DNA of 64,000 bases from positions 27,729,798 to 27,793,797 of the forward strand of contig CM069442.1 in the NCBI GenBank assembly GCA_035610835.1, read 5' to 3'. The notes below the pieces were generated by a model. It made no database searches. It was not told the origin of the DNA and saw nothing but the letters and a program-made list of their open reading frames with translations. The stretch comes from Ophiura sarsii. Its lineage: Eukaryota; Echinodermata; Ophiuroidea; Amphilepidida; Ophiuridae. This document shows positions 18,735 to 57,900 of the stretch, piece by piece. Position 1 is the first letter of the stretch; each line of letters opens with the position of its first letter. The translations under genes and the position numbers were made by a program.

Positions 18735-18740
18735 AACCAG
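18735..18740 (+). repeat. left 6-bp target-site duplication
   Basis: AACCAG immediately before the left TIR, matched exactly by AACCAG at 28040-28045. Confidence 0.9.
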
Positions 18741-18762
18741 AGTAGTAATAGTGGTACTTCAT

Positions 18763-18799
18763 CCCAGAAATTTGAATTTCTGGGACAGAAATCTGTCCC
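18763..18799. promoter_or_regulatory. two overlapping terminal hairpins
   Basis: CCCAGAAATT/AATTTCTGGG forms a 10-bp stem with a 2-base loop (18763-18784). GGGACAGA/TCTGTCCC forms an 8-bp stem (18782-18799). They share GGG 18782-18784, so only one can form at a time. They start 22 bases from the element end and are mirrored at 27981-28017. A role as replication or recombination signal is inferred. Confidence 0.7.
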
Positions 18800-19067
18800 A
18801 AAATCCGAAATTTGGAATCAAAAAATTAAAAAATTAAAATACAAGTCTATGTTCGGAATAACCACAACAACAAAAAAAAACCAAAAAACACCCATTTTCA
18901 GTAGCCAGAGTCAAAGTCAGGCCATCGAAGTATATGAAAGGACGTTGTAATTAGGGCGTTAATCGTTTCTTCACACATTGCTACCCTATCGAGGCGATGT
19001 CTGAATGTCGTTAGGTTAATTAAGGCGTATGAAATAGGTAAGGGTTCTATTCAACTTAGCAGTAGCT

Positions 19068-19095
19068 TTGGGCTGTCCGTTATTTAAGGACAGCC
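19068..19095. repeat. TIR hairpin GGGCTGTCC
   Basis: GGGCTGTCC and GGACAGCCC surround a short AT-rich loop, a third stem in the TIR. Present in the right arm too, at about 27685-27712. Confidence 0.7.
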
Positions 19096-19552
19096 CTAGT
19101 ATTAAAACTAAAAAAAACGGAACATTATCCATAATTACTAACAAACCCTAAACCACCATTATTTGCAATGATTTCAACATTTATTCCCCAAATATGAAAA
19201 CATCCTCAAATGTGAACGTATAAATTCAACTCGGGAAAAGGTTTTATTGTTTTACTGTTTATTGAATTAAATATTTCTCAGGCTCGGACAGCATTATTTT
19301 CGCGGGTTAATTGGGTCTATCCAAGGTGGTGCCAAATTGTTTATTCGCACCAATTTAGGCCTATGTAGCAGCCGTGTAACAAAGGGGGTGTTATTGCGAT
19401 TGACAGGCTGGTTCTCTATATAATTGGAGGCCTACCCCAATCATTTTACTTACACCGGTGGCAAGCATTCTACACGCATACACACCGTCCCAACACCCTC
19501 GCTCTTATACCAGACATCGCATCGTTTTCAATATTGTCAACGCTGCACCTTG

Positions 19553-19690
19553 ATGGCCTATTCAGCCGCTGCTCCTATCGTTCGTCCGAATCCTTTGGAT
19601 TCGATACCGAAAAGAACGAGTATCCTTAACAGACCCTCTGAAAATATACCGGTAGCGAAGTCGCTCCGTACACACTGGCGACTTACGTGA
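19553..19690 (+). CDS. small TIR-encoded ORF, unknown
   Basis: Reading from ATG 19553 gives 45 residues rich in Pro, Ser and Arg (starts MAYSAAAPIV). A TATATAAT box at 19417-19424 lies about 130 bases upstream; the frame is open back to 19424 without an ATG. It overlaps the end of a second open frame in another phase (19642-19818). I do not recognise it. Both TIRs carry it unchanged, but the arms are nearly identical overall, so conservation is weak evidence of function. Confidence 0.3.
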   Translation: MAYSAAAPIVRPNPLDSIPKRTSILNRPSENIPVAKSLRTHWRLT

Positions 19691-19818
19691 ATGATCTTTG
19701 GAACTATATAATTGAATATGGTCACGCTTTAAGTGAGGAAAAACGCGATCATTTGGTGGGTGCAGTACCGGCTAGCGAATGGTTGATTAAACGCGGACTG
19801 TACCTATTATACTTTTGA
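19642..19818 (+). CDS. second TIR frame, possible continuation of the 19553 ORF
   Basis: Fifty-eight codons are open after a TGA at 19639, with no ATG near the start. The composition is protein-like: W and Y residues, the helical YVNDLWNYIIEYG, then SEEKRDHL, and an ending WLIKRGLYLLYF. It overlaps the preceding ORF in a different frame. A splice, programmed frameshift or ancestral indel near 19640-19670 could join them; the sequence alone cannot decide. Function unknown. Confidence 0.35.
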   Translation, partial: KYTGSEVAPYTLATYVNDLWNYIIEYGHALSEEKRDHLVGAVPASEWLIKRGLYLLYF

Positions 19819-19871
19819 ACGCGCGTAATAAGTACAAATACACTATTTAAATATACTTTTTCTTTTCTTCT

Positions 19872-19877
19872 TTTATT
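19872..19877 (-). terminator. polyadenylation signal of left C2H2 gene
   Basis: AATAAA on the minus strand about 250 bases past the stop of the zinc-finger gene; mirrored at 26903-26908. Confidence 0.5.
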
Positions 19878-20123
19878 TACTTTCTCATAAACTCAAAATT
19901 TGAAACGCTCCAACAAGATCCACGTCGTCCCACCAAGGAATGACGCTACTAGTAATAAAATTTAAACCTTTTTTAAATACTATACGTTACTTAAGTACGT
20001 TACGATAAATGCACGCACGACGAAATCAGTTAGCCATTACTTAAAGAAACTAAATCATAATTAACGTTACTATTACAAGGCCTAATAGTCTCTATCGGAT
20101 CGTTTCTTCTTATTCGTAATATT

Positions 20124-20777
20124 TTAATCTCCATCGTCTTCCTCGGTATCTTCATCTTCATCTTGTTCGAACAATGCTTTAAATTTCCCTCGGTATTTAG
20201 GTATAACTCTATCCAAGGCTTTGTTGACGTCCATGCCTTTATCCATTTTCTCTTCGAGATCATCTAACACTTTTTGATGAGTATCGTCGTCTTTCACGCT
20301 TAGGTAACTAGACAAAAAGTCCTTATAGTTGTTGAAAAAGCTTCTCTTGACCGCCCACAAAGTCTTTCTATCGGCCTTTCCTTTAGCTTGGTCTTCACTC
20401 ATACCCTCATTGACGTATTTGTCATACTTTGCGTTCCACATCTCCCCGGTCGTTTCTTTAGCCTCTTCTAACCAGTCTCGATAGGCAATATTGTCTTCAA
20501 GCTCGGAACTAGATTCATCTTCTCGCGATAACTCGGCATCTTCGCTTTCGGATTCAGACTCTGCTTCCTCCGAATCGTTGTTTTCGTCCCGAGAAGATTC
20601 GCTTTCGGTATCTTCCGACATTTCATACCCGGTATTACTCGACCCGTCCGTTTCTTCCATAGTAGACCCTTCCTCAGAGTGATCGTTTTCCATGTGTCGC
20701 CGTAAATTAAACCTCCGACTAAAGCTTTTGTCGCACGCGCGACAAGCGTAGGGTTTGATGGCGGACAGAGAATCCAT
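20124..20777 (-). CDS. TIR-encoded single C2H2 zinc-finger protein, left copy
   Basis: 217 aa, identical to the right-arm copy (26007-26660). The start ATG sits in a strong CACCATGG context. Residues 12-33 form one zinc finger (C12, C15, H28, H33; C-x2-C-x12-H-x4-H). Residues 34-95 are a Ser/Asp/Glu-rich disordered stretch. Residues 97-205 are predicted helical and basic-acidic, with W102 and Y/F-rich helices. The tail is DEDEDTEEDDGD-like. A lone finger plus charged tail suggests DNA binding or architectural use; no enzyme motif is present. The gene reads outward, away from the element centre. An array of about 20 TGAGTAAA units lies just upstream, a candidate promoter element or binding site. 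Family not recognised with certainty. Confidence 0.75.
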   Translation of the reverse strand: MDSLSAIKPYACRACDKSFSRRFNLRRHMENDHSEEGSTMEETDGSSNTGYEMSEDTESESSRDENNDSEEAESESESEDAELSREDESSSELEDNIAYRDWLEEAKETTGEMWNAKYDKYVNEGMSEDQAKGKADRKTLWAVKRSFFNNYKDFLSSYLSVKDDDTHQKVLDDLEEKMDKGMDVNKALDRVIPKYRGKFKALFEQDEDEDTEEDDGD

Positions 20778-20847
20778 GGTGTTTACTCTTTGAATAGTAA
20801 TCTCCGAATGACGAAGGATTTACGATACTCAATATTTTACTCTTCTG

Positions 20848-21100
20848 GTGGCTCATTTTACTAATTTTACTCATTTTTTACTCATTTTACTCATTTTTTA
20901 CTCATTTTACTCAATTTTTTACTCATTTTACTCAATTTTTTACTCATCTTTTTACTCATTTTACTCATTTTACTCATTTTTTACTCATTTTACTCATTTT
21001 TTTACTCATTTTACTCATTTTTTTACTCATTTTACTCATTTTACTCATTTTTTACTCATTTTACTCATTTTTTTACTCATTTTACTCATTTTACTCATCT
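20848..21100 (-). promoter_or_regulatory. TGAGTAAAA iteron array upstream of left C2H2 gene
   Basis: About 23 copies of ACTCATTTT/AAAATGAGT with 9- to 12-base spacing end about 70 bases from the C2H2 start codon. TGAGTAA half-matches an AP-1-type site, but the array may equally serve replication. The right arm has about 21 units. Frames through it (THFTHF, YSFYSF-like) are artefacts of the repeat. Confidence 0.6.
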
Positions 21101-21433
21101 ACATGCGCGCGTACTCTTATATTTACGGGTCTTAATAGGGGTGATCGAAAGGAAGTGTCTCTAGGTTGATTTAACCGTCGATCCTAAGTGCGGGGGATTC
21201 AATTAAAGAAATACAGAAAATCAATTACGAATAAAAATGATTAGATTATAGTAAATGACCGGTTTTATTCTTAATACCGCTAATCTACGAGTCCAGACAC
21301 GCTCTTTAACTTTGTTTACTATTTGTTACGGGGTAATTAGATCCTAGTTGTTGTTTTTCACCCCAATTAGTTATTTTTAAATCAATGATGTCACGATGTC
21401 AAAAATAACTTACCCCCTCTCTCTATAATTGTG

Positions 21434-21441
21434 TATATATA
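21434..21441 (+). promoter_or_regulatory. TATA box of central copy A
   Basis: TATATATA, 84 bases before ATG 21525, preceded by CTCTCTATAATTG, which resembles the TATA region upstream of the 19553 frame (CTCTATATAATTGG). Confidence 0.45.
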
Positions 21442-21524
21442 TGACCCAGCGTGGTTTATGAACTAACTATTTAGAGTAATCCGTCTAAATCGCCGGATCG
21501 TTACGTTTCTCCATTTAATAAGTT

Positions 21525-21884
21525 ATGGCTACTAACTACGGCGTGGATGAAGCCGGTATTTGGGACACGTCTTATCATTGCGGAAAGAAACCGTTTCAAG
21601 ATTTCTTTGAACGTTTGAGAAGAGATCGAAAGGATAACGCGGTCGAGTCTTCCGACTGTATATTGATCAGCGAGTATAGCAATCAGATCAGTCTGACAGT
21701 AACATTGAATGAGTTAGACACGGAGGAAGAAGAAGCGGAAGATGAAGCGGAAGAAGAAGAAGAAGAAGTACAGGTATTGGACGTAATACCCGGTGATACA
21801 TTAGAACATCAAGGAGAGGATGTCGAGATATTAGATGACTCTATCGAGGAAATATCAAGGGATTCCGTTATAGTCTTAAACTAA
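21525..21884 (+). CDS. copy A part 1: acidic protein with YGVDEAGIWD start
   Basis: 119 aa. Residues 5-14 read YGVDEAGIWD and are shared with copy B (22992). A basic stretch follows (FFERLRRDRK), then a long Glu run, then VQVLDV, VEILDD and a C-terminal VIVLN. These short [VI]-x-[VI]-L cores in acidic context resemble SUMO-interaction motifs, though that is inference. In copy B the same N-terminus continues into a zinc-cluster domain; here a stop at 21882 separates them, followed by further small frames. Part of a duplicated locus in the element centre. No known family recognised. Confidence 0.6.
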   Translation: MATNYGVDEAGIWDTSYHCGKKPFQDFFERLRRDRKDNAVESSDCILISEYSNQISLTVTLNELDTEEEEAEDEAEEEEEEVQVLDVIPGDTLEHQGEDVEILDDSIEEISRDSVIVLN

Positions 21885-21893
21885 AACACAGCT

Positions 21894-22064
21894 ATGACGT
21901 CTCTGTTAAGAGCGGGGGCAAGTCGGAACAAGTTGCTAGAATGCATCCATGACGTAGCATACGGTCAAGTAGCGACAAGTTTGAACCGCCAAAATATTCA
22001 ACGTGACGCCAGTGCCCCATCGAGCAATGACGTAACGACCGACCAATGGAGATCGCGTACCTAA
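21894..22064 (+). CDS. copy A small ORF between parts 1 and 2
   Basis: 56 aa from an ATG 9 bases after the preceding stop (starts MTSLLRAGAS, then RNKLLECIHDVAYGQ). The compact spacing is typical of gene-dense viral-type elements. No counterpart is obvious in copy B and I recognise no domain. The short length keeps confidence low. Confidence 0.3.
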   Translation: MTSLLRAGASRNKLLECIHDVAYGQVATSLNRQNIQRDASAPSSNDVTTDQWRSRT

Positions 22065-22153
22065 TGGGGCGAGGAAGCAGGCGGTATTGTTCGAGAGACT
22101 AAGAGACGTACATCATTCCATAGAAGCGAACCTTGCATAAACATTGTACCTAC

Positions 22154-22660
22154 ATGTCTTATAGCTTTCGCACTGTGTTAGAAAACTTAATAGTGGACGA
22201 AATGGAGGCCTGGTTTAAATCGGTGGAATTTCAGAACTTAGGACGTCTAGTCAAGTACATATACGCTCAATGTCTCACCGAGGAAGCGAACAAACTGTTA
22301 AAAAATAGATGCAACGGTTGTCAAACGGATCATCCTGGTCAGCTGAATCATATATGCATCGACCCACAGCCAGCCTTGGATCCATTCATCCTGTACGTGT
22401 ACGCTGAGGCGTTGGAGTCGATAGATCTCACCCGCGTTGAATCGACGTATCATAGGTCCAGAAAGATATTAAACTGGGGGTACGGAAACAGCGCACCTCG
22501 GCAAGATTACAGTTGGCATATTAAAAAGTGTGTCAGTGTATGGTACTTCAGTGACTTTGCTAGCATCGAGTCCGATCTAACGGTGGACGATAACATATCG
22601 GAAGCGGTGAAGCAAGCGCGGATGGATCTGGGGGTCGATCAGTCGCCCGAACTTGCCTAG
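22154..22660 (+). CDS. copy A part 2: C-x2-C-x3-H-x5-H-x-C protein
   Basis: 168 aa from ATG 22154; the frame is open a little upstream but only from TTG, so this ATG is chosen. C53, C56, H60, H66 and C68 form a compact Cys/His cluster (CNGCQTDHPGQLNHIC), likely zinc binding. It is flanked by helices, including AEALESIDL, which aligns with EEALSSIDL of copy B. The C-terminus is unrelated in detail to copy B. I have a general impression that CxGCxxDHPxQ-type proteins occur in Polinton-associated ORFs of other invertebrates, but cannot verify it. Function unknown. Confidence 0.6.
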   Translation: MSYSFRTVLENLIVDEMEAWFKSVEFQNLGRLVKYIYAQCLTEEANKLLKNRCNGCQTDHPGQLNHICIDPQPALDPFILYVYAEALESIDLTRVESTYHRSRKILNWGYGNSAPRQDYSWHIKKCVSVWYFSDFASIESDLTVDDNISEAVKQARMDLGVDQSPELA

Positions 22661-22790
22661 TCGCTACAGCTACACGATGATGGTGACCCTCTATTTCTTG
22701 ATTCCGATGGACCCTTCTGGAAATCACCCCCCACATGACGTCATCGTCTAAAAATATAACCTATGGTTCGGGCGAGTCTTGACAAGTCGA

Positions 22791-22796
22791 AATAAA
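22791..22796 (+). terminator. polyadenylation signal after copy A
   Basis: AATAAA 131 bases past the stop at 22660. Confidence 0.45.
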
Positions 22797-22991
22797 CACA
22801 TTAAAACACGTTGATACGTGACAGCATGATGATGTCGTCCTAAAATAGATTTATTAGCGCGTGATGTGTTTGGTCTAACGTGATTGGTACAATACTTTTG
22901 AAGTTTCCGTATATACTGACTTGCGAGTACACATGTCATTTCACGACGCCCAACAGCTATATACGAGACTTTGTTGGATATGATCATGATG

Positions 22992-23792
22992 ATGGCTAGA
23001 AGTAATAACTACGGTGTGGATGAAGCCGGTATTTGGGACAAGTCTCCGAGTTGGGGGTTAAACGAAAAGAGACCGTTTCAAGTTTTCTTTGAAAATAGAC
23101 GAAGTACGCAAGATCGAAAGTGTGAAACTCTTGCAAGTTCTTCAACGGATTGCGCGTTAGTCATCGACTGTGTAAATAGCAATCAGATTGGTAGAGGTGA
23201 GACAGTGACATCGGACGACTCTAATCAAGAAATAGATACAGAGGCAGAAGTACAGATATTGGCCGTGTTAGGGCCTGATAATTCTAACCGTGATGAAAGT
23301 CAAACTGAAGAAGACGATATTCAGATATTAGATGTAACAGCGGCTAAAACGAATTATTTGCAGAGACTATTGACATACATAATAGGAGATGAATTGGAGC
23401 GTCAGTCGTCAGACTTGGTGAAGACAAGATGTGATGGGTGTATAATAGATCATCCTAGCCAGGTGCAACACGCGTGTGCAGTATTTGGAGAATGGTGGTA
23501 CGACTTGATCTATGAGGAAGCGCTATCTAGTATAGATCTGGGCTACATAAAGGCTGTGTTCCTCCAGGCTGTAAGCATACGTCGGCTTGATTCCGACCGA
23601 ATTGACTTTGAACTCTCGGCCGCAGAAACCCTTGCACTATGGGCGAACAAACAGTATCGGGACGGCGTTGGTGCTTCGGACGGTCCAGCATTGCTTCGGT
23701 CTTTTCGACATACAGATTCCACGGCCGAAGCCAGGAATCTAGTGAAGCTTCTGTTACAACCACTTTTTAATCTCAGAGCTTCAAGAGACTAA
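22992..23792 (+). CDS. copy B: fused acidic/zinc-cluster protein
   Basis: 266 aa from ATG 22992, chosen because MA...NYGVDEAGIWD then aligns with copy A; three in-frame ATGs lie just upstream. Domains: YGVDEAGIWD (7-16), basic segment (about 25-43), acidic region with EVQIL (86-90) and DDIQILDV (108-115), and the zinc cluster C147, C150, H154, H160, C162. A helical region with EEALSSIDL follows. It is the fused version of what copy A carries as separate frames. A GTATATAC TATA-like box lies near 22911. Either the fused form is ancestral and copy A was broken by a stop, or the reverse. Confidence 0.6.
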   Translation: MARSNNYGVDEAGIWDKSPSWGLNEKRPFQVFFENRRSTQDRKCETLASSSTDCALVIDCVNSNQIGRGETVTSDDSNQEIDTEAEVQILAVLGPDNSNRDESQTEEDDIQILDVTAAKTNYLQRLLTYIIGDELERQSSDLVKTRCDGCIIDHPSQVQHACAVFGEWWYDLIYEEALSSIDLGYIKAVFLQAVSIRRLDSDRIDFELSAAETLALWANKQYRDGVGASDGPALLRSFRHTDSTAEARNLVKLLLQPLFNLRASRD

Positions 23793-24068
23793 CAAGTCAA
23801 TCTGTTGTTTGCAGTGACGAAAAGGCGCTTAGTATTGCGTTAGATTTTGCCGAAGAAATCAAGGTTTCTCCGAACTATCAACTAATGAACGATATGTCTT
23901 GGCTTATAGACGCGGGGGGAAACGTTTGAAGTTAGCTTTAAAAAGCTCGCGGAAATTGTTCTGGACAAAAGACAATCAAAGTCATCTACAGAAAAGTGTG
24001 GGTGTTTTTTCGTACTCTTGTTTTGTACGTGCCAATGCGGCAGACCTATACCTTGCGCTGAGCAATGA
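23771..24068 (+). pseudogene. third central frame, broken at a G6 run
   Basis: One frame is open from 23771 to a TGA just after CGCGGGGGGAAACG (about 23922-23930). Reading resumes coherently one base out of phase and runs to TGA 24066. The first part is helical (ALSIALDFAEEI); the second is basic, then has a short Cys-rich hydrophobic tail with CGCFFVLLF. There is no ATG at the start. A pyrimidine-rich TCTGTTGTTTGCAG just before AGTGACGAA could be a splice acceptor. The homopolymer shift could be real or a sequencing artefact. Confidence 0.35.
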
Positions 24069-24282
24069 GGAACACCAACGCGTTGTGGAAGAGACTGTAG
24101 AAACACAGACTTTAGATTGGATATTACGTCAAAGGATATAGAAAACCGGATCATGAAACTATTGGAGCGTTTGGTTATTGCTGATTACTATTTTAATGTT
24201 TTCTATTAAAAAATATGTTCTAAAAGAAGAATAATAATAAAAAAAGTATTATGCCTTTATATATTTGTGTCATGTTAATATA

Positions 24283-25455
24283 CATACATACATACATACA
24301 TACAATAGGCTTTTATAGAGCGCCATTTCATAAAGATCACAGCGCTAAAGATGATAGAACAATACAAAATGCATGAAAAATATACACAAAATAGTAAAGA
24401 ACATGAAAACAAAACAAAGGGACCTGACTGAAGCATGCGATGGAGCTACTTGGGGAAGAGGTGTGATTTCAGACCCTTCTTAAAGTTGGAAACCGTTCTG
24501 GCACACCGAATGGATGGCGGTAGGGCATTCCATAGCCCAGGAGCAGAATAATAAAATGTCCTGTTGACAGCTGATTTCATTGTCCTGTTGTGGATCTTAT
24601 GTACTGTGAGACGAGTGACGTCAGAGGCTGATCGCAACCCCTCACGCGCTGATGAATGCAAAGTGAGGCATGATGTAAGATAGGCTGGGCCCAGTCCATT
24701 GAGGCACTTGTAGATGTAAAGCAAGACCTTGAAGTTTATACGTTGATTAACAGGTAGCCAATGTAGTTGGTGCAGTAGTGGGGATGCATGGTCTTTTTTG
24801 GATTTGCAGAAAATCAGTTTAGCTGCCCAGTTCTGGAGGCGCTGAAGCCGTGCAATATCCTTAGCGTTTGAGCCTGCTAAAAGTGCATTCCCATAATCAA
24901 GCCGTGAAAGAACCAATGCTCGAACAATGTGATTGCATGTTTCAAAGTCCAGATATCGACGGATGCGGGCAATGTTACGGAGATGGAAAGCAACACTACG
25001 TGATATTGCTGAGATCTGGTTGGCCATTGTCATTTGACTGTCAAAGATTACACCAAGGTTCCTGATATTCTCAGATGGCATGATGGTCTCAGAACCGATT
25101 TGAAGTGAGACTGAAGGCATACGGCGCTTATTGTATGGTGAAGTTGCAACAAAAAACTCTGTTTTATCATTGTTCAATTTGAGCATGTTTGCAGTCATCC
25201 ATAATGTTATGTCACTGATACATGAGGTGATGGTGGCGAGAGCTGAGAGAATGGAACTATGGTTGGATGGATCAAAAGTAATGTAAATTTGAATGTCATC
25301 AGCATACAGGTGGTATGACAAGCCATGATGTTGGATGATTCTGCCAATTGGTATTGTGTACACTGAGAAAGACAATGGCCCTACAGTTGAGCCTTGAGGA
25401 AGTCCGTAACGTAGGGCTTGCTTAGCAGAGAGGGAACCATTAATACTGAATATTT
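24283..25455 (-). mobile_element. 5'-truncated CR1/L2-like LINE inserted in the element
   Basis: On the minus strand the sequence enters at the end of the reverse-transcriptase palm, with GLPQGSTVGPL then YADD, and runs through the thumb and C-terminus (LHWLPVNQRI, LWNALPPSIR) to a stop at 24446. The 3' end terminates in a (TATG)n microsatellite at 24283-24304, as is usual for CR1/L2 elements, which lack poly(A). It begins abruptly near 25455, so only about a third of ORF2 is present. The 309-aa frame is intact, so insertion is relatively recent. Confidence 0.85.
24446..25452 (-). CDS. LINE reverse transcriptase, C-terminal part
   Basis: The frame is open from the truncation point, covering RT motifs 4 (LPQGSTVGPL) and 5 (YADD, metal-binding aspartates), the primer grip region with LKLNNDKTEF, and the conserved C-terminal motifs LHWLPV and LWNALP. 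The endonuclease and the first half of RT are absent, so it is not functional alone. Known role: target-primed reverse transcription. Confidence 0.85.
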
Positions 25456-25544
25456 AATGGTGTGTTGTATTAGAGAAGGACACCAGCATCGCCTTCGGAA
25501 CCAGCCGCCTCAACAGCGGCGAGTGAGCGAAATGGCTGCAATAT
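25456..25544. other. element centre between LINE and right TIR
   Basis: A short remainder of the unique centre (includes CCGCCTCAACAGCGGCGAGT); nothing further recognised. Confidence 0.4.
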
Positions 25545-25705
25545 GGTCATTTACTATAATCTAATCATTTTTATTCGTAATTGATTTTCTGTATTTCTTT
25601 AATTGAATCCCCCGCACTTAGGATCGACGGTTAAATCAACCTAGAGACACTTCCTTTCGATCACCCCTATTAAGACCCGTAAATATAAGAGTACGCGCGC
25701 ATGTA

Positions 25706-25935
25706 GATGAGTAAAATGAGTAAAATGAGTAAAAAATGAGTAAAATGAGTAAAAAATGAGTAAAATGAGTAAAATGAGTAAAAAAATGAGTAAAATGAGT
25801 AAAAAAATGAGTAAAATGAGTAAAATGAGTAAAAAGATGAGTAAAAAATTGAGTAAAATGAGTAAAAAATTGAGTAAAATGAGTAAAAAATGAGTAAAAT
25901 GAGTAAAAAATGAGTAAAATTAGTAAAATGAGCCA
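25706..25935 (+). promoter_or_regulatory. TGAGTAAAA iteron array, right copy
   Basis: About 21 units of TGAGTAAAA(A), ending about 70 bases before ATG 26007. It is shorter than the left array, the main length difference between otherwise near-identical arms. Confidence 0.6.
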
Positions 25936-26006
25936 CCAGAAGAGTAAAATATTGAGTATCGTAAATCCTTCGTCATTCGGAGATTACTATTCAAAGAGTA
26001 AACACC

Positions 26007-26660
26007 ATGGATTCTCTGTCCGCCATCAAACCCTACGCTTGTCGCGCGTGCGACAAAAGCTTTAGTCGGAGGTTTAATTTACGGCGACACATGGAAAACG
26101 ATCACTCTGAGGAAGGGTCTACTATGGAAGAAACGGACGGGTCGAGTAATACCGGGTATGAAATGTCGGAAGATACCGAAAGCGAATCTTCTCGGGACGA
26201 AAACAACGATTCGGAGGAAGCAGAGTCTGAATCCGAAAGCGAAGATGCCGAGTTATCGCGAGAAGATGAATCTAGTTCCGAGCTTGAAGACAATATTGCC
26301 TATCGAGACTGGTTAGAAGAGGCTAAAGAAACGACCGGGGAGATGTGGAACGCAAAGTATGACAAATACGTCAATGAGGGTATGAGTGAAGACCAAGCTA
26401 AAGGAAAGGCCGATAGAAAGACTTTGTGGGCGGTCAAGAGAAGCTTTTTCAACAACTATAAGGACTTTTTGTCTAGTTACCTAAGCGTGAAAGACGACGA
26501 TACTCATCAAAAAGTGTTAGATGATCTCGAAGAGAAAATGGATAAAGGCATGGACGTCAACAAAGCCTTGGATAGAGTTATACCTAAATACCGAGGGAAA
26601 TTTAAAGCATTGTTCGAACAAGATGAAGATGAAGATACCGAGGAAGACGATGGAGATTAA
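26007..26660 (+). CDS. TIR-encoded single C2H2 zinc-finger protein, right copy
   Basis: 217 aa, identical in sequence to the left copy and also facing outward. ATG in CACCATGG context. C12/C15/H28/H33 finger, acidic linker (34-95), helical domain (97-205) and acidic tail. Identity of both proteins indicates recent origin of the TIR pair or ongoing homogenisation. AATAAA at 26903-26908 may end the transcript. Confidence 0.75.
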   Translation: MDSLSAIKPYACRACDKSFSRRFNLRRHMENDHSEEGSTMEETDGSSNTGYEMSEDTESESSRDENNDSEEAESESESEDAELSREDESSSELEDNIAYRDWLEEAKETTGEMWNAKYDKYVNEGMSEDQAKGKADRKTLWAVKRSFFNNYKDFLSSYLSVKDDDTHQKVLDDLEEKMDKGMDVNKALDRVIPKYRGKFKALFEQDEDEDTEEDDGD

Positions 26661-26902
26661 AATATTACGAATAAGAAGAAACGATCCGATAGAGACTATT
26701 AGGCCTTGTAATAGTAACGTTATGATTTAGTTTCTTTAAGTAATGGCTAACTGATTTCGTCGTGTGTGCATTTATCGTAACGTACTTAAGTAACGTATAG
26801 TATTTAAAAAAGGTTTAAATTTTATTACTAGTAGCGTCATTCCTTGGTGGGACGACGTGGATCTTGTTGGAGCGTTTCAAATTTTGAGTTTATGAGAAAG
26901 TA

Positions 26903-26908
26903 AATAAA
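26903..26908 (+). terminator. polyadenylation signal of right C2H2 gene
   Basis: AATAAA 243 bases past the stop at 26660. Confidence 0.5.
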
Positions 26909-26961
26909 AGAAGAAAAGAAAAAGTATATTTAAATAGTGTATTTGTACTTATTACGCGCGT

Positions 26962-27138
26962 TCAAAAGTATAATAGGTACAGTCCGCGTTTAATCAACCA
27001 TTCGCTAGCCGGTACTGCACCCACCAAATGATCGCGTTTTTCCTCACTTAAAGCGTGACCATATTCAATTATATAGTTCCAAAGATCATTCACGTAAGTC
27101 GCCAGTGTGTACGGAGCGACTTCGCTACCGGTATATTT
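26962..27138 (-). CDS. right copy of the second TIR frame
   Basis: Mirror of 19642-19818: same open frame, same lack of ATG, same overlap with the adjacent frame. See the left copy for content; function unknown. Confidence 0.35.
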   Translation of the reverse strand, partial: KYTGSEVAPYTLATYVNDLWNYIIEYGHALSEEKRDHLVGAVPASEWLIKRGLYLLYF

Positions 27139-27227
27139 TCAGAGGGTCTGTTAAGGATACTCGTTCTCTTCGGTATCGAATCCAAAGGATTCGGACGAAC
27201 GATAGGAGCAGCGGCTGAATAGGCCAT
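27090..27227 (-). CDS. right copy of the small TIR ORF
   Basis: Mirror of 19553-19690, 45 residues starting MAYSAAAPIV. Confidence 0.3.
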   Translation of the reverse strand: MAYSAAAPIVRPNPLDSIPKRTSILNRPSENIPVAKSLRTHWRLT

Positions 27228-27980
27228 CAAGGTGCAGCGTTGACAATATTGAAAACGATGCGATGTCTGGTATAAGAGCGAGGGTGTTGGGACGGTGTGT
27301 ATGCGTGTAGAATGCTTGCCACCGGTGTAAGTAAAATGATTGGGGTAGGCCTCCAATTATATAGAGAACCAGCCTGTCAATCGCAATAACACCCCCTTTG
27401 TTACACGGCTGCTACATAGGCCTAAATTGGTGCGAATAAACAATTTGGCACCACCTTGGATAGACCCAATTAACCCGCGAAAATAATGCTGTCCGAGCCT
27501 GAGAAATATTTAATTCAATAAACAGTAAAACAATAAAACCTTTTCCCGAGTTGAATTTATACGTTCACATTTGAGGATGTTTTCATATTTGGGGAATAAA
27601 TGTTGAAATCATTGCAAATAATGGTGGTTTAGGGTTTGTTAGTAATTATGGATAATGTTCCGTTTTTTTTAGTTTTAATACTAGGGCTGTCCTTAAATAA
27701 CGGACAGCCCAAAGCTACTGCTAAGTTGAATAGAACCCTTACCTATTTCATACGCCTTAATTAACCTAACGACATTCAGACATCGCCTCGATAGGGTAGC
27801 AATGTGTGAAGAAACGATTAACGCCCTAATTACAACATCCTTTCATATACTTCGATGGCCTGACTTTGACTCTGGCTACTGAAAATGGGTGTTTTTTGGT
27901 GTTTTTTTGTTGTTGTGGTTATTCCGAACATAGACTTGTATTTTAATTTTTTAATTTTTTGATTCCAAATTTCGGATTTT

Positions 27981-28017
27981 GGGACAGATTTCTGTCCCAG
28001 AAATTCAAATTTCTGGG
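27981..28017. promoter_or_regulatory. overlapping terminal hairpins, right copy
   Basis: Mirror of 18763-18799, with the same two stems sharing three bases, 22 bases from the right end. Confidence 0.7.
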
Positions 28018-28039
28018 ATGAAGTACCACTATTACTACT

Positions 28040-28045
28040 AACCAG
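28040..28045 (+). repeat. right 6-bp target-site duplication
   Basis: AACCAG directly after the right TIR. Confidence 0.9.
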
Positions 28046-51358: not shown

Positions 51359-54300
51359 GTCTCGCCTGATGTAATCAGAAAGAGACTATGTTATCACTAT
51401 TTCTGTCCGGCGTCCGCCGTATGCCGTCCGCCGTATGCCGTATGCCGTGTGCTAAGAAATACCTTTGTGACGCGATATCTGGAGATCCGTAAGGCCTATC
51501 GTGATGGGACTTGGTGGAGGGAAGGGGAGTGGTGCGTTCTGTTGCTGATTGATTTTTCAAGGTCATCGGGGGTCATACAAGGTCATCGGGGTCAAATATG
51601 CTTAAAACCTTTGAGACGCGTTGTGACGCGATATCTAGAGATCCGTAAGGCCTATCTTGATGGGACTTGATGTCAGGGAAGGGGGTGGGGTGTTCTTTTG
51701 CTGATTAGATTTTCAAGGTCATTGGAGGTCATTCAAGGTCATCGGGGTCAAATATGGGGTCAAATAAGATCCGTAAGGCCGATCTTGATGGGATTTGGTG
51801 GAGGGAAGGGGGTGTGTTCTTTTTGCTGATTACATTTTCAAGGTCATCGGAGGTCATTCAAGGTCATCAGGGGTCAAATATGGGGTCAAATAGATCAGTA
51901 AGGCCTATCTTGATGGGATTTGGTGGAGAGAAGGGGGGTGGTGTGTTCTTTTTGCTGATTAAATTTTCAAGGTCACCAGAGGTCATCGGGGTCAAATATG
52001 GGGTCAAATAGATCAGTAAGGCCTATATTGATGAGATTTGGTGGAGGGAAGGGGAGTGGTGTGTTCTTTTTGCTGAATAAATTTTCAAGGTCATCAGAGG
52101 TCATTCAAGGTCATCGGGGGTCAAATAAGATCCATAAGGCCTATCTTGATTGGATTTGGTGGAGGGAAGGGGGATGGTGTATTCTTTTTGTTCTTAATTT
52201 TTCGGGGTCATCAGGAGTCAAATATGGGGTCAAATAGATCAGTAAGGCCTATCTTGATGGGATTTGGTGGAGGGAAGGGGGCGGGTGTGTTCTTTTTGTT
52301 GATTAATTTTTCGGGGTCATCAGGAGTCAAATATGGGGTCAAATAGATCAGTAAGGCCTATCTTGATGGGATTTGGTGGAGGGAAGGGGGCGGGTGTGTT
52401 CTTTTTGTTGATTAATTTTTCGGGGTCATCGGGGGTCAAATATGGGGTCAAATAGATCAGTAAGGCCTATCTTGATGGGATTTGGTGGACGGAAGAGGGA
52501 TGGTGTGTTCTTTTTGTTGATTAATTTTTCGGGGTCATTGGGGTCAAATATGGGGTCAAATAGATCAGTAAGGCCTATCTTGATGGGATTTGGTGGAGGG
52601 AAGGGGGTGGTGTGTTCTCTTTGTTGATTAATTTTTCGGGGTCATCTGGGGTCAAATATGGGGTCAAATAGATCAGTAAGGCCTATCTTGATGGGATTTG
52701 GTGGAGGGAAGGGGGTGGTGTGTTCTTTTTGTTGATTAATTTTTCGGGGTCATCGGGGGTCAAATATGGGGTCAAATAGATCAGTAAGGCCTATCTTGAT
52801 GGGATTTGGTGGACGGAAGAAGGATGGTGTGTTCTTTTTGTTGATTTATTTTTCGGGGTCATCGGGGGTCAAATATGGGGTCAAATAGATCAGTAAGGCC
52901 TACCTTGATGGGATTTGGTGGACGGAAGAGGGATGGTGTGTTCTTTTTGTTGATTAATTTTTCGGGGTCATCGGGGGTCAAATATGGGGTCAAATAGATC
53001 AGTAAGGCCTATCTTGATGGGATTTGGTGGACGGAAGAGGGATGGTGTGTTCTTTTTGTTGATTATTTTTTCGGGGTCATCGGGGGTCAAATATGGGGTC
53101 AAATAGATCAGTAAGGCCTATCTTGATGGGATTTGGTGGACGGAAGAGGGATGGTGTGTTCTTTTTGTTGATTAATTTTTCGGGGTCATCGGGGGTCAAA
53201 TAGATCAGTAAGGCCTATCTTGATGGGATTTGGTGGAGGGAAGGGGGGTGGTGTGTTCTTTTTGTTGATTAATTTTTCGGGGTCATCGGGGGTCAAATAT
53301 GGGGTCAAATAGATCAGTAAGGCCTATCTTGATGGGATTTGGTGGACGGAAGAGGGATGGTGTGTTCGTGTTCTTTTTGTTGATTAATTTTTCAGGGTCA
53401 TCGGGGTCAAATATGGGGTCAAATAGATCAGTAAGGCCTATCTTGATGGGATTTGGTGGAGGGAAGGGGGGTGGTGTGTTCTTTTTGTTGATTAATTTTT
53501 CGGGGTCATCGGGGGTCAAATATGGGGTCAAATAGATCAGTAAGGCCTATCTTGATGGGATTTGGTGGAGGGAAGGGGAGTGGTGTGTTCTTTTGGTTGA
53601 TTAATTTTTCGGGGTCATCGGGGGTCAAATATGGGGTCAAATAGATCAGTAAGGCCTATCTTGATGGGATTTGGTGGAGGGAAGGGGGGTGGTGTGTTCT
53701 TTTTGTTGATTAATTTTTCGGGGTCATCGGGGGTCAAATATGGGGTCAAATAGATCAGTAAGGCCTATCTTGATTGGATTTGGTGGAGGGAAGGGGGGTG
53801 GTGTATTCTTTTTGCTGATTAAATTTTCAAGGTCATCGGAGGTCATTCAAGGTCATCTGGGGTCAAATAAGATCCGTAAGGCCTATCTTGATGGGATTTG
53901 GTGGACGGAAGAGGGATGGTGTGTTCTTTTTGTTGATTAATATTTCGAGGTCATCAGAGGTCATCTGGGGTCAAATAAGATCCGTAAGGCCTATCTTGAT
54001 GTGATTTGGTGGAGGGAAGGGGGTTGGTGTGTTCTTTTTGCTGATTAAATTTTCAAGGTCATCAGAGGTCATCTGGGGTCAAATAAGATCTGTAAGGCCT
54101 ATCTTGGTGTGATTTGGTGTAGGGAAGGGGGTTGGTGTGTTCTTTTTGTTGATTAAATTTTTCAAGGTATTACATCCCTTGCATTTACTACAATGCATAC
54201 CTCTGTGACAGTGCTACATTGTATCATATGTTTCATCATCATTTCTTTCAAGTCACTTTTGATGAACAGGCGAGACGCGCCGTTCGAGAACCGCCTTGTT
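51359..54300 (+). mobile_element. TIR-bounded tandem-repeat element, copy 1
   Basis: Starts GTCTCGCCTGATGTAATCAG; the inverse of its first ten bases (CAGGCGAGAC) lies at 54267-54276, followed by a conserved GCGCCGTTCGAGAA-type tail. Between them is an array of about 25 units of 108-118 bp containing AGTAAGGCCTATCTTGATGG, GTTGATTAATTTTTCGGGGT and GGGGTCAAATATGGGGTCAA. The repeated frames across it (GFGGGKGGGVFF-like) come from a period divisible by three in part of the array. Confidence 0.8.
51470..54160 (+). repeat. ~109-bp minisatellite array
   Basis: Consecutive GATCAGTAAGG positions 52237, 52346, 52455, 52563 and 52671 give periods of 109, 109, 108 and 108. Outer units are longer and more diverged (extra GGTCATTCAAGGTCAT), central units nearly identical, as expected from unequal exchange. 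Confidence 0.9.
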
Positions 54301-54677
54301 TAAAACCATTGGGTGCACCAACCCCCCACCCCCTTGTAATGACTGCTAGCACCTTGGAAACCTTGTGTTGTTTCTTTATTTAATGTTATATTAACTTGCT
54401 GTTTTCAAACACATACCACTGAGCTACTGTAGCTTGTATATAACTACAATTAAAGATTTGTTAAAATTGCCACACAAGTTCCAAGATACCTCTGTCTAAA
54501 ACAAGTGTAAAAGTTTCTTTGTGTAATTCTGTAGATTTCATCAGCTTAAATGTGCGCACATTCGATGATCAAGTCAACTATATGGGCATAAATGGCTGCA
54601 CTGTGCAAATGAAAAAGTTTGTTTGTTTTTTAAGTTTTTTATTTTTCACTTATATTTTGTTCTCTTTTATGATATAG

Positions 54678-54973
54678 ATGAGCTGCCAACATGAATTCGT
54701 TGTCTGAGAAATTTGTAATGAACGTTGCTAAATCAATGGCACCTCAACGTATGATGGAATTTGCTATTGAACTTGGTATAAAAAGTCATAGAATTGATCA
54801 AATCAGAGATAACTACCGTGACAGCGTTGCAGCAAATTTTGCAATCCTCCAAGATTGGAATGAAAAGGAAAAGAGCGATGCAATAGAGGAATTTAAAGCG
54901 GCGTTGAAGACAATTCCTGAGCTGAAATATGTATATGACATGATTGGAACTGATGAGCTTGGACCTTATGAAG
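54678..54973 (+). CDS. host gene exon 1 (coding): death-like domain
   Basis: Acceptor TCTTTTATGATATAG implies an upstream non-coding exon not located here. Coding starts at ATG 54691, with in-frame TGA at 54679 just before it. The 94 residues look like a death-fold domain: LSEKF, hydrophobic heptad-like helices, IDQIRDNYRD, ILQDWNEKEK and a C-terminal ALKTIPELKYVYDMI. Ends in phase 1 (GAAG before GTAGGG). Death domains mediate homotypic assembly in apoptosis and innate signalling; whether this one does is unknown. CARD or DED assignment is possible. Confidence 0.7.
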
Positions 54974-57900
54974 GTAGGGTAGTTTTATTGTTTCGCCTGA
55001 TGTAATCAGAAAGAGACTATGTTATCACTATTTCTGTCCGGCGTATGGCGTCCGCCGTCTGCCGTGTGCTAAGAAATACCTTTGTGACGCGATATCTGGA
55101 GATCCGTAAGGCCTATCTTTGATGGGACTTGGTGGAGGGAAGGAGGGAGGGTGGTGCGTTCTTTTGCTGATTGAATTTTCAAGGTCATTGGAGGTTATCG
55201 GGGTCAAATATGCTTAAAACTCTTGTGACGCATTGTAACACGATATCTAGAGATCCGTAAGGCCTATGTTGATGGGACTTGATGTCGGGAAAGGGGGTGG
55301 TGTGTTCTTTTGCTGAGTAGATTTTCAAGGTCATTGGAGGTCATTCAAGGGCATCAGGGTCAAATATGGGGTCAAATAAGATCGGTAAGGCCTATCTTGA
55401 TGGGATTTGGTGGAGGGAAGGGGGTGGTGTGTTCTATTTGCTGATTAAATTTTCAAGGTCATCGGAGGTCATTCAAGGTCATCGGGGTCAAATAGATTAG
55501 TAAGGCCTATATTGATGAGATTTGGTGGAGGGAAGGGGAGTGGTGTGTTCTTTTTGCTGAATAAATTTTCAAGGTCATCAGAGGTCATTCAAGGTCATTG
55601 GGGTCAAATAAGATCTGTAAGGCCTATCTTGATTGGATTTGATGGAGGGAAGGGGGTGGTGTATTCTTTTTGCTGATTACATTTTCAAGGTCATCGGAGG
55701 TCATTCAAGGTCATCTGGGGTCAAATAAGATCCGTAAGGCCTATCTTGATGGGATTTGGTGGACGGAAGAGGGATGGTGTGTTATTTTTGTTGATTAATT
55801 TTTCGAGGTCATCGGAGGTCATCTGGGGTCAAATAAGATCCGTTAGGCCTATCTTGATGGGATTTGGTGGAGGGAATGGGGTTGGTGTGTTCTTTTTGCT
55901 GATTAAATTTTCAAGGTCATCAGAGGTCATCTGGGGTCAAATAAGATCCGTAAGGCCTATCTTGATGGGATTTGGTGGAGGGAAGGGGGTTGGTGTGTTA
56001 TTTTTGCTGATTAAATTTTCAAGGTCATCAGAGGTCATCTGGGGTCAAATAAGATCCGTAAGGCCTATCTTGATGGGATTTGATGGACGAAAGAGGGATG
56101 GTGTGTTCTTTTTGTTGATTAATTTTTCGAGGTCATCTGGGGTCAAATAAGATCCGTAAGGCCTATCTTGATGTGATTTGGTGGAGGGAAGGGGGTTGGT
56201 GTGTTCTTTTTGCTGATTAAATTTTCAAGGTCATCAGAGGTCATCTGGGGTCAAATAAGATCCGTAAGGCCTATCTTGATGGGATTTGGTGGACGGAAGA
56301 GGGCTGGTGTGTTCTTTTTGCTATTAATTTTACGAGGTCATTCAAGGTCATCTGGGGTCAAATAAGATCCGTGAGGCCTATCTTGATTGAATTTGGTAGA
56401 GAAAAGTGTGTTCTTATTGCCGATTAATTTTTCGAGGTCATTCAAGGTCATCTGGGGTCAAATAAGATCCGTAAGGCCTATCTTGATTATATTTGGTGGA
56501 GAGAAGGGGTGTGGTGTGTTCTTTTTGCTGATTAATTTTTCAAGGTCATCTGGGGTCAAATAAGATCTGTAAGGCCTATCTTGATGGTATGTGGTGGAGG
56601 GAAGGGGGATGGTGTGTCCTTTTTGCTGATTTAATTTTCAAGGTCATCAGAGGTCATTCAAGGTCAAATATGGGGTCAAATAGATCAGTAGGGCCTATCT
56701 TGATGGGACTTGGTGGAGGGAAGGGGGTGTATTCTTTTTGTTGATTAAATTTTCACGGTCATTGGAGGTAATTCAAGAACGTCTGGGGTCCCCCTAAAAT
56801 GTCTTGCCTCCTTTTGCCCCCCCCACCCCCCCCCTCCCCCAAAAAAAATTATGATGCTGGCGCCGCCACTGCATAGTCCAAAGGTGGTGGGTACTATCTA
56901 AACTTTGAAGGGCCATAAAGCAGAAACGATTCATTTGTGTTCCGCAATTTTTTTAGTACTGGGTAACATTTGAGCATCCCTTAAGGTATTACATCCCTTG
57001 CATTAACTACAATGCATTCCTCTGTGACAGTGCTACATTGTATCATCATATGTTTCATCATCATTTCTTTCAAGTCACTTTTGATGAACAGGCGAGACGC
57101 GCCGTTCGAGAACTGCCTTGTTGAAATATATGCTGGAATATACACACAGCCTCTTACGGTGTCTCTTTTTTTAAAACCATTGACCTGAGGTGATCCCGAT
57201 CTCAATAATACCTTTTTTTCCTTCAGTGCCCAACCTCTTAAAAATAGTACAGTTGATGTCACCAAGGGAAGTTTTATCAAGAGCCGTAACATATGGTGAA
57301 ATCACCATCCCTTACAGTACACAATGTAGTGTATCTTCAGTTTGATAAGTCAGAATGTCAGATTTTCATTTAAATCTAACATTCTAATGAAAGGTTATAA
57401 TGTCATTGATTTTCATGATGAAAAATAATGACATGGGTATCTAATATTTTCAGCAACATGAGAACACAAGTCTACATGTTTTATTTACATGAACAATAAT
57501 CGAATACCATATTTCTATTATTTCCTTTTTCTTACATCAGATACTACAGCCAAGAAACCTATAAACAAGCGTACAATGACAGACAATACTCAACAGAAAG
57601 CTAAAAAGAGGGCAAAAATATCTAGAAAGAAAAAAGGTAAAACAATTAAGGATGGGTGTTGAGAGGGGGGTCCGGGGTATCATCTGGCTCTCACCTGGGG
57701 ACTAAAGACAATTACTGTTCTCAAAACAACTAGTCTCAAGGGAGGAGTCAATTTTGTAAACAAATCCAAGTGCAAGTATCCAAATCTGTCATTGAAGACC
57801 ATCCTTTAATTGATGAGTTTACATCCACCTCATCAGATTCGCCTGATAATGGATTGAATGGTAATAAGCCATTCACTAAATTGTTGGTTTGCCATAAAGA

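Follow-up and report, generated by a model that had tools for sequence, protein, structure and literature searches.

A probable gene-bearing Polinton satellite in the genome of Ophiura sarsii

How does a mobile element move if it has the ends of a Polinton and none of the recognised Polinton machinery? The question is raised by a 9.3-kb element within a 64,000-nucleotide stretch of Ophiura sarsii DNA (GenBank assembly GCA_035610835.1, contig CM069442.1, positions 27,729,798 to 27,793,797 of the forward strand), the whole of which we call the window. The element shares its ends and a 6-bp target site duplication (TSD) with a Polinton, contains no recognised Polinton core gene, has several close copies, and carries a C2H2 zinc-finger gene that is also present in other Polinton-ended elements. 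For these reasons the locus is probably a gene-bearing Polinton satellite, mobilised in trans, with a C2H2 protein that binds its own array of short repeats; the part of this reading that concerns a satellite using a Polinton's ends is supported by the genome-wide comparisons described here.

Ends shared with a Polinton

The features of the element, in window coordinates, are as follows.

18735-18740, left TSD, AACCAG, exact match to the right copy
28040-28045, right TSD, AACCAG, exact match to the left copy
18741-21260, plus strand, left terminal inverted repeat (TIR), 2520 bp, starting AGTAGTAATAGTGG
25545-28039, minus strand, right TIR, 2495 bp
18741-19044, plus strand, outer ~304 bp of the TIR, mirrored at ~27736-28039, common to the right end of the C666 Polinton (below) and the other complete elements
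20124-20777, minus strand, C2H2 gene in the left arm, 217 amino acids (aa) from the ATG
26007-26660, plus strand, second copy of the C2H2 gene, in the right arm
20834-21100, array of repeats (unit around ATGAGTAAA) immediately 5' of the left C2H2 gene and mirroring the right array
25707-25932, right iterated array, immediately 5' of the second C2H2 copy
21525-21884, plus strand, open reading frame (ORF) A, 119 aa, acidic
22154-22660, plus strand, ORF B, 168 aa, domain with the motif CxGCx3HPxQx2HxC
22980-23792, plus strand, ORF AB, A-like N-terminus fused to a B-like HPSQ domain
24282-25450, minus strand, 5'-truncated long interspersed nuclear element (LINE) fragment (RVT_1) that ends in an (ATAC)n tract

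The two arms differ by 4 mismatches and 25 gap positions over 2495 aligned positions, with 21 of the gap positions inside the (ATGAGTAAA)n array, and they enclose a centre of 4284 bp (21261-25544). Both termini are AGTAGTAATAGTGG with (AGT)2 tips. The original prediction, made from the sequence alone, had described a perfect AACCAG duplication, near-identical TIRs of about 2.5 kb and AGT-repeat termini, and had assigned the ends to the Polinton type; all of this is borne out, the last by a Polinton elsewhere in the genome that shares the outer terminus and likewise has a 6-bp TSD.

The 1.57-Gb assembly (748 contigs) was searched with a 166-base query comprising the TSD and terminus, the best 40 of 53 candidates being scored. 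At least 40 terminus matches were obtained: 30 of these pair up into 15 complete elements, the window's among them, a further match is an inner end at C13, and the remaining nine, all unpaired ends, were left out of the element readings. All 15 complete elements have an exact 6-bp duplication in flanks read by eye (AACCAG, AGCCTG, GATGGC, AGGGCA, AAGGGG, CATGAC, TATAAG, TGTGTC, GGTAAT, TACGTG, ATTGTA, TTAGTT, TACCCC, TGGGTG and AGGGTG), and their outer ends are 86-99% identical when one arm of each is compared, the left end at C17 lying three bases off its alignment position. The search for further copies and the duplication length proposed as checks thus gave what the original prediction anticipated. 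The same copies refute the explanation that the inverted arms are an assembly artefact, to which we give next to no credence: near-perfect long inverted arms can be assembler products, but here arms that have diverged are found at 15 places, the 14 further copies each with its own exact TSD.

Terminus bases 8-20, between AGTAGTA and CATCCCAG, vary among the 15 elements and mostly agree between the arms of one element.

The autonomous Polinton with the same termini that had been called for was found at C666 (read as pieces L023 and L024). It is 17.8 kb long, and Pfam identifies in it PolB (PF03175, 4.4e-45), an integrase (PF00665, 3e-15) with a chromodomain (PF00385, 2.1e-08), an adenovirus-type protease (PF00770, 7.6e-04, slightly under the cut-off) and two PC4-domain proteins (1.5e-16 and 1.5e-05, the second just under the cut-off). 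Two more ORFs are named by resemblance: one of 458 aa, without a Pfam match, may be the capsid protein, and one of 226 aa, with weak P-loop matches alone, is presumably the packaging ATPase; PHROGs searches with ten C666 ORFs matched integrase and polymerase only. The right end of this Polinton aligns with the window arm over the outer ~305 bp at 84% identity and over an inner block of ~110 bp at 76%, and the left end over ~104 bp at 88%. It encodes an HPSQ accessory protein distantly related (31%) to the HPSQ domain of the satellite, and contains neither a C2H2 match nor an iterated array of the satellite type.

The window's C2H2 gene is present in 13 of the 15 complete elements, the others being the C666 Polinton, with its PolB and integrase, and the C15 element, and this distribution supports the satellite-type passenger of the original prediction. 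ORFs A, B and AB, or parts of them, accompany the C2H2 gene in 11 of these 13, and are missing at C1:68.4 Mb and C14:60.45 Mb. The C17 satellite has an outer end that matches the C666 right end at 97% identity and C15 at 96%, against 86-92% for the outer ends of the other 12 satellites, and its A, B and AB proteins share 95-98% identity with those of the window. To judge from these identities, the pattern looks like an end exchange between satellite and helper, which would require the two to have met as DNA.

Three copies have unusual structures. That at C17 (L026/L027, C17:66263925-66276501) is a head-to-head inverted dimer in which two A-B-AB sets face each other. The rearranged C13 copy (L017/L018, C13:26027071-26037938) contains an inner terminal sequence, and its 6-bp duplication fits the outer ends only. 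The 19.4-kb copy at C8 (L014/L015, C8:50502532-50521935) was considered as an autonomous element and rejected; it is a satellite in which an insertion of ~10 kb separates the start of the B gene from AB, and no ORF of at least 110 aa begins and ends inside this insertion.

Gene content, constraint and origin

The arm ORF encodes a single C2H2 finger (PF00096, 2.9e-05, 24.7 bits, just below the 25.2 cut-off), and Pfam searches of nine ORFs from the element and its right flank found no PolB, integrase, capsid, protease, ATPase, helicase or NS1 domain. Nine proteins of the C666 Polinton likewise gave no tblastn match at E 1e-3 anywhere in the window, nor in the other fetched loci (L001 and L002 left out). 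The absence of Polinton core genes noted in the original prediction therefore stands, as does its account of a coding content made up of a C2H2 protein and small proteins, except that it overlooked the LINE fragment at 24282-25450, which is recognised by an RVT_1 match (4.1e-12) in an ORF at 24446-25453. This fragment is missing from all seven sister copies compared, so the LINE was inserted later and is not the satellite's own.

An AlphaFold model of the C2H2 protein (mean predicted local distance difference test score, pLDDT, 70.7) has a single finger, an acidic low-confidence linker and a C-terminal helical domain. The protein has 50 public relatives at E <= 0.01 among 187 candidates, with 41-88% identity. 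For the HPSQ domain shared by B and AB, 37 public relatives were found at E <= 0.1 in addition to the starting protein P0001; a PC4 domain is present in two of ten scanned (P0016 and P0032, one just under the cut-off), so that HPSQ and PC4 occur in one protein in these two and in separate genes in the C666 Polinton.

The HPSQ proteins P0034-P0038, mostly from short assembled contigs, may resemble the NS3 proteins of densoviruses, and so may the HPSQ motif itself. This raises the question of whether the element is an undescribed parvovirus-like or bidnavirus-like entity with Polinton ends and NS3-like HPSQ proteins. According to PMC4061559 and PMC4966970, densoviruses, baculoviruses and bidnaviruses have NS3-like zinc proteins in common, and the PolB and TIRs of bidnaviruses are believed to derive from Polintons. 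However, Pfam found no capsid, helicase or NS1 domain, neither the AB model (pLDDT 68.9) nor the C2H2 model had a match with E below 0.1 among viral structures, and IMG/VR yielded no relatives through the AB protein, the HPSQ profile, the C2H2 profile, the terminal 23-mer or a degenerate HPSQ DNA motif. A viral origin of this kind is thus very improbable. The degenerate motif also hit two contigs among prokaryote genomes, which we took as chance.

A plainer alternative is that the element is an ordinary non-autonomous deletion derivative, akin to a miniature inverted-repeat transposable element (MITE), in which the core has been lost and the leftover genes drift. The shared ends, the ~110-bp inner TIR block and the distant HPSQ relative would all fit, and a real derivative of the C666 type does exist at C15 (5.6 kb), retaining a Polinton PC4 gene. 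C2H2, A and B do not behave as leftovers, however. The ratio of nonsynonymous to synonymous substitution rates (dN/dS) is 0.198 for C2H2 (11 copies), 0.351 for A (10) and 0.123 for B (8), with 0.650 for AB (10), and 0.160 (8 copies) and 0.379 (4 copies) for two groups of divergent C2H2 genes, values computed from the start codon among open copies only, which lowers them. They replace an earlier stop-to-stop computation (C2H2 0.152, A 0.340, B 0.124, AB 0.755). There is also no C2H2 match in the C666 Polinton, and the gene has its public homologues and occurs in other small elements as well.

The distribution of the gene in the genome points the same way. A C2H2 search gave at least 155 matches (150 listed; best 150 of 1389 candidates scored) and a PolB search at least 65 (best 55 of 396 candidates scored); each of the 150 C2H2 matches listed is more than 50 kb away from all 65 PolB matches, and the shortest distance among the matches listed is 610 kb. 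Because C2H2, A and B are constrained and no listed C2H2 gene has a listed PolB gene nearby, the element is probably a satellite rather than a decayed Polinton, and simple loss of the core is an unlikely origin for it.

The finger, its array and the divergent elements

Divergent C2H2 genes were read in 18 stretches representing 17 distinct places, three of them re-read with wider flanks. Four lie in complete elements of 1.7-7.8 kb with recognisable ends and a 6-bp TSD, listed here in the coordinates of each stretch; at the other 13 places ends were not found within the stretches covered, many of which are just 3.7 kb.

L031, 1233-2973, 1741 bp, TSD AACCAT, C2H2 the sole recognised gene
L033, 7030-8792, 1763 bp, TSD TCTAGA, C2H2 the sole recognised gene
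L050, 3262-8001, 4740 bp, TSD TGTATA, PC4 gene in the arms (broken in one), C2H2 central
L051, 106-7886, 7781 bp, TSD CGCGTC, ends AGAAGTATAAAG, HPSQ gene in the arms (intact in the right one), C2H2 central

A genome search with the L031 end (best 40 of 62 candidates scored) gave at least 41 matches, and besides L031 and L033 paired ends of this type enclose C2H2 matches at C5:68319546-68326303, C16:10446781-10451314 and C10:19437532-19455530.

In 15 of the 16 loci inspected, the 500 bp 5' of the C2H2 gene contain a recognisable iterated array (weak in L036), the exception being L047. The window family has the unit TGAGTAAA, the 1.75-kb elements CAATGAG(C/T)CA, L046 AAAGAGTAA, L045 and L048 AAGAGCAA, and the L034-L051 group TGACGCCCG. 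In the C2H2 recognition code, as set out in the excerpted text of PMC12264921, the residues at positions -1, -4 and -7 before the first zinc-binding His specify the 5', central and 3' base, with Arg or Lys specifying G, Asn A and Asp C. The window finger has Arg, Asn and Arg, for which the code predicts GAG, and the L050 finger has Arg, Asp and Arg, for which it predicts GCG.

These predictions were compared with the arrays of 36 readable loci. GAG is the most enriched G-N-G triplet in 19 of the 20 loci with Asn (the exception, L032, has GGG), and GCG in 14 of the 15 with Asp (the exception, L043, has GTG). Four loci were left out as the same places as others (L037, L038, L041 and L044, equivalent to L034, L051, L049 and L050), L015 and L025 have no readable finger, and L026 and L027, the two arms of one element, were counted twice. 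Six loci obtained after the GAG/GCG expectation had been set down (L052-L057) are all of the Asp type, and GCG is the top triplet in all six (z 3.5-7.1). No such enrichment is seen in the 600 bp downstream in the 30 loci with enough sequence, where z is at most 2.1 for GAG (L045) and never above 0 for GCG. The rest of the array unit changes between families and the core triplet stays; statistically, then, the central finger residue covaries with the core triplet of the 5' array, as the code predicts for these sequences.

Several observations temper this fit. The loci are related, so that a count by distinct array unit is the cautious one, and it gives GAG in 4/4 for Asn and GCG in 4/4 for Asp (one-sided Fisher 0.014); four of the six loci read blind share the unit AATGCGTC. 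The enrichment z scores derive from mononucleotide shuffles, and in the L034-L051 group those for GCG are only 1.8-3.2, with raw GTG counts that often equal or exceed GCG. The array of L047, AGATTGAA, which accompanies the sole finger with Gly at the central position, fits neither GAG nor GCG and is unexplained by the code. Moreover, a single finger seldom suffices for DNA binding.

The end type and the finger/array module do not always travel together. The element at C16:10446781-10451314 holds L055, which has an Asp-type finger, while the finger of L031 is of the Asn type, so one type of end goes with different modules; from the sequences, ends and modules seem to have been exchanged between elements.

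An array beside the gene for its presumed binding protein could also mark a self-replicating linear replicon, in which the C2H2 protein and its iterons form an independent origin and only integration is borrowed from Polintons. The array adjoins the gene and, statistically, fits its finger in several families, C2H2 is the sole recognised gene of the ~1.75-kb elements, and replication might have produced the inverted dimer at C17. However, Pfam found no replication enzyme domain in the nine ORFs, and transcriptional autoregulation accounts for the array equally well, and we consider a replicon of this kind rather unlikely. The C17 dimer and the rearranged C13 copy could be leftovers of replicating linear DNA with inverted ends, although recombination is equally able to produce them.

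Proposed mechanism and relation to known elements

If the element is a Polinton satellite, the polymerase/terminal protein and integrase of a Polinton would act in trans on the shared ends, copying and inserting it. The C2H2 protein would bind its own array and regulate either its gene or the copying of the element, and the predicted helical C-terminal domain may allow it to multimerise. A, together with B and AB, whose HPSQ domain is common to the Polinton accessory protein, would modulate the helper or the host. Because the array lies directly 5' of the C2H2 gene, autoregulation is the cautious reading, and a role as an origin or partition site is the bold one. Taken at its boldest, the proposal would be of a new class of Polinton satellites defined by a two-part module of their own, and not by remnants of a helper: a C2H2 protein with one finger and an iteron array that co-evolves with it, the module serving as an origin or partition system, with helper Polintons giving polymerase and integrase and the ~1.75-kb elements as minimal forms; this we offer tentatively, as a possibility that we would not yet favour.

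Some of the data weigh against a satellite. A single Polinton with these ends was identified, and its left end aligns over just ~104 bp. AB is weakly constrained. An element with both C2H2 and PolB could be missed among the candidates outside the matches listed, and core genes in the divergent loci were probed with C666 proteins only, which a strongly diverged gene could escape. The pair of ends of the L031 type at C10:19437532-19455530 spans 18.0 kb around its C2H2 match; it has no PolB among the matches listed, and could be either a nested element or a counterexample. Zinc-finger regulator genes are also reported from some adintoviruses (PMC11071296), and satellites in general are therefore not the only carriers of such genes.

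The satellite reading can be placed among several known systems, each characterised here from partial texts of the sources cited. It resembles the Polinton/Maverick elements (PMC4028283, PMC6431247), exemplified by C666, in its outer ends, (AGT)2 tips, 6-bp target duplication and HPSQ accessory protein, but has no recognised PolB, integrase, protease, ATPase or capsid, and its C2H2 gene and array are not found in C666. Some adintoviruses (PMC11071296) also combine a zinc-finger gene with a Polinton-related element, whereas no virion gene was recognised in the satellite. Ginger transposons (PMC2836005) are integrase-related transposons with TIRs, but they encode their own integrase and duplicate 4 bp (Ginger1/2) or 5 bp (TDD-4/5). 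Pack-MULEs and other trans-mobilised non-autonomous transposons (PMC6431247) have ends recognised by an enzyme supplied in trans, as would be the case for the satellite; unlike them, it has constrained genes of its own, with no helper core genes among them and, to the extent tested, no pieces of host genes. Virophages and transpovirons (PMC3671162) are similarly small, depend on or associate with a larger element, and have few genes, including zinc-binding proteins of unknown role; their helpers, however, are giant viruses, whereas the putative helper here is a Polinton of the same host genome, and the satellite yielded neither a capsid nor a helicase match.

Non-autonomous transposons that are mobilised in trans are already known, as are satellites of giant viruses. 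In iteron plasmids, the gene for a DNA-binding protein adjoins an array of its presumed sites, as the C2H2 gene of the satellite adjoins an array of candidate sites, but no initiator domain is seen in the satellite. No description of non-autonomous Polintons or Polinton satellites was found in the literature searched; Repbase and most subscription papers lie outside it, and such elements may be described there. Satellites of this kind are not described in the portions seen of PMC2836005 and PMC3671162.

Diverse gene-bearing satellites in one genome would bring Polintons, themselves placed near the root of several eukaryotic DNA virus groups, under the kind of parasitism known from virophages and transpovirons. 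The statistical match of finger to array provides a module that is directly testable in vitro, with natural pairs of single-finger proteins and candidate sites, and the C2H2 gene is a marker for seeking such satellites elsewhere.

Rfam at its gathering scores gave no match anywhere in the window. Outside the element, positions 51465-56777 of the window are occupied by long tandem arrays with a unit of ~109 bp and a double form of 218 bp.

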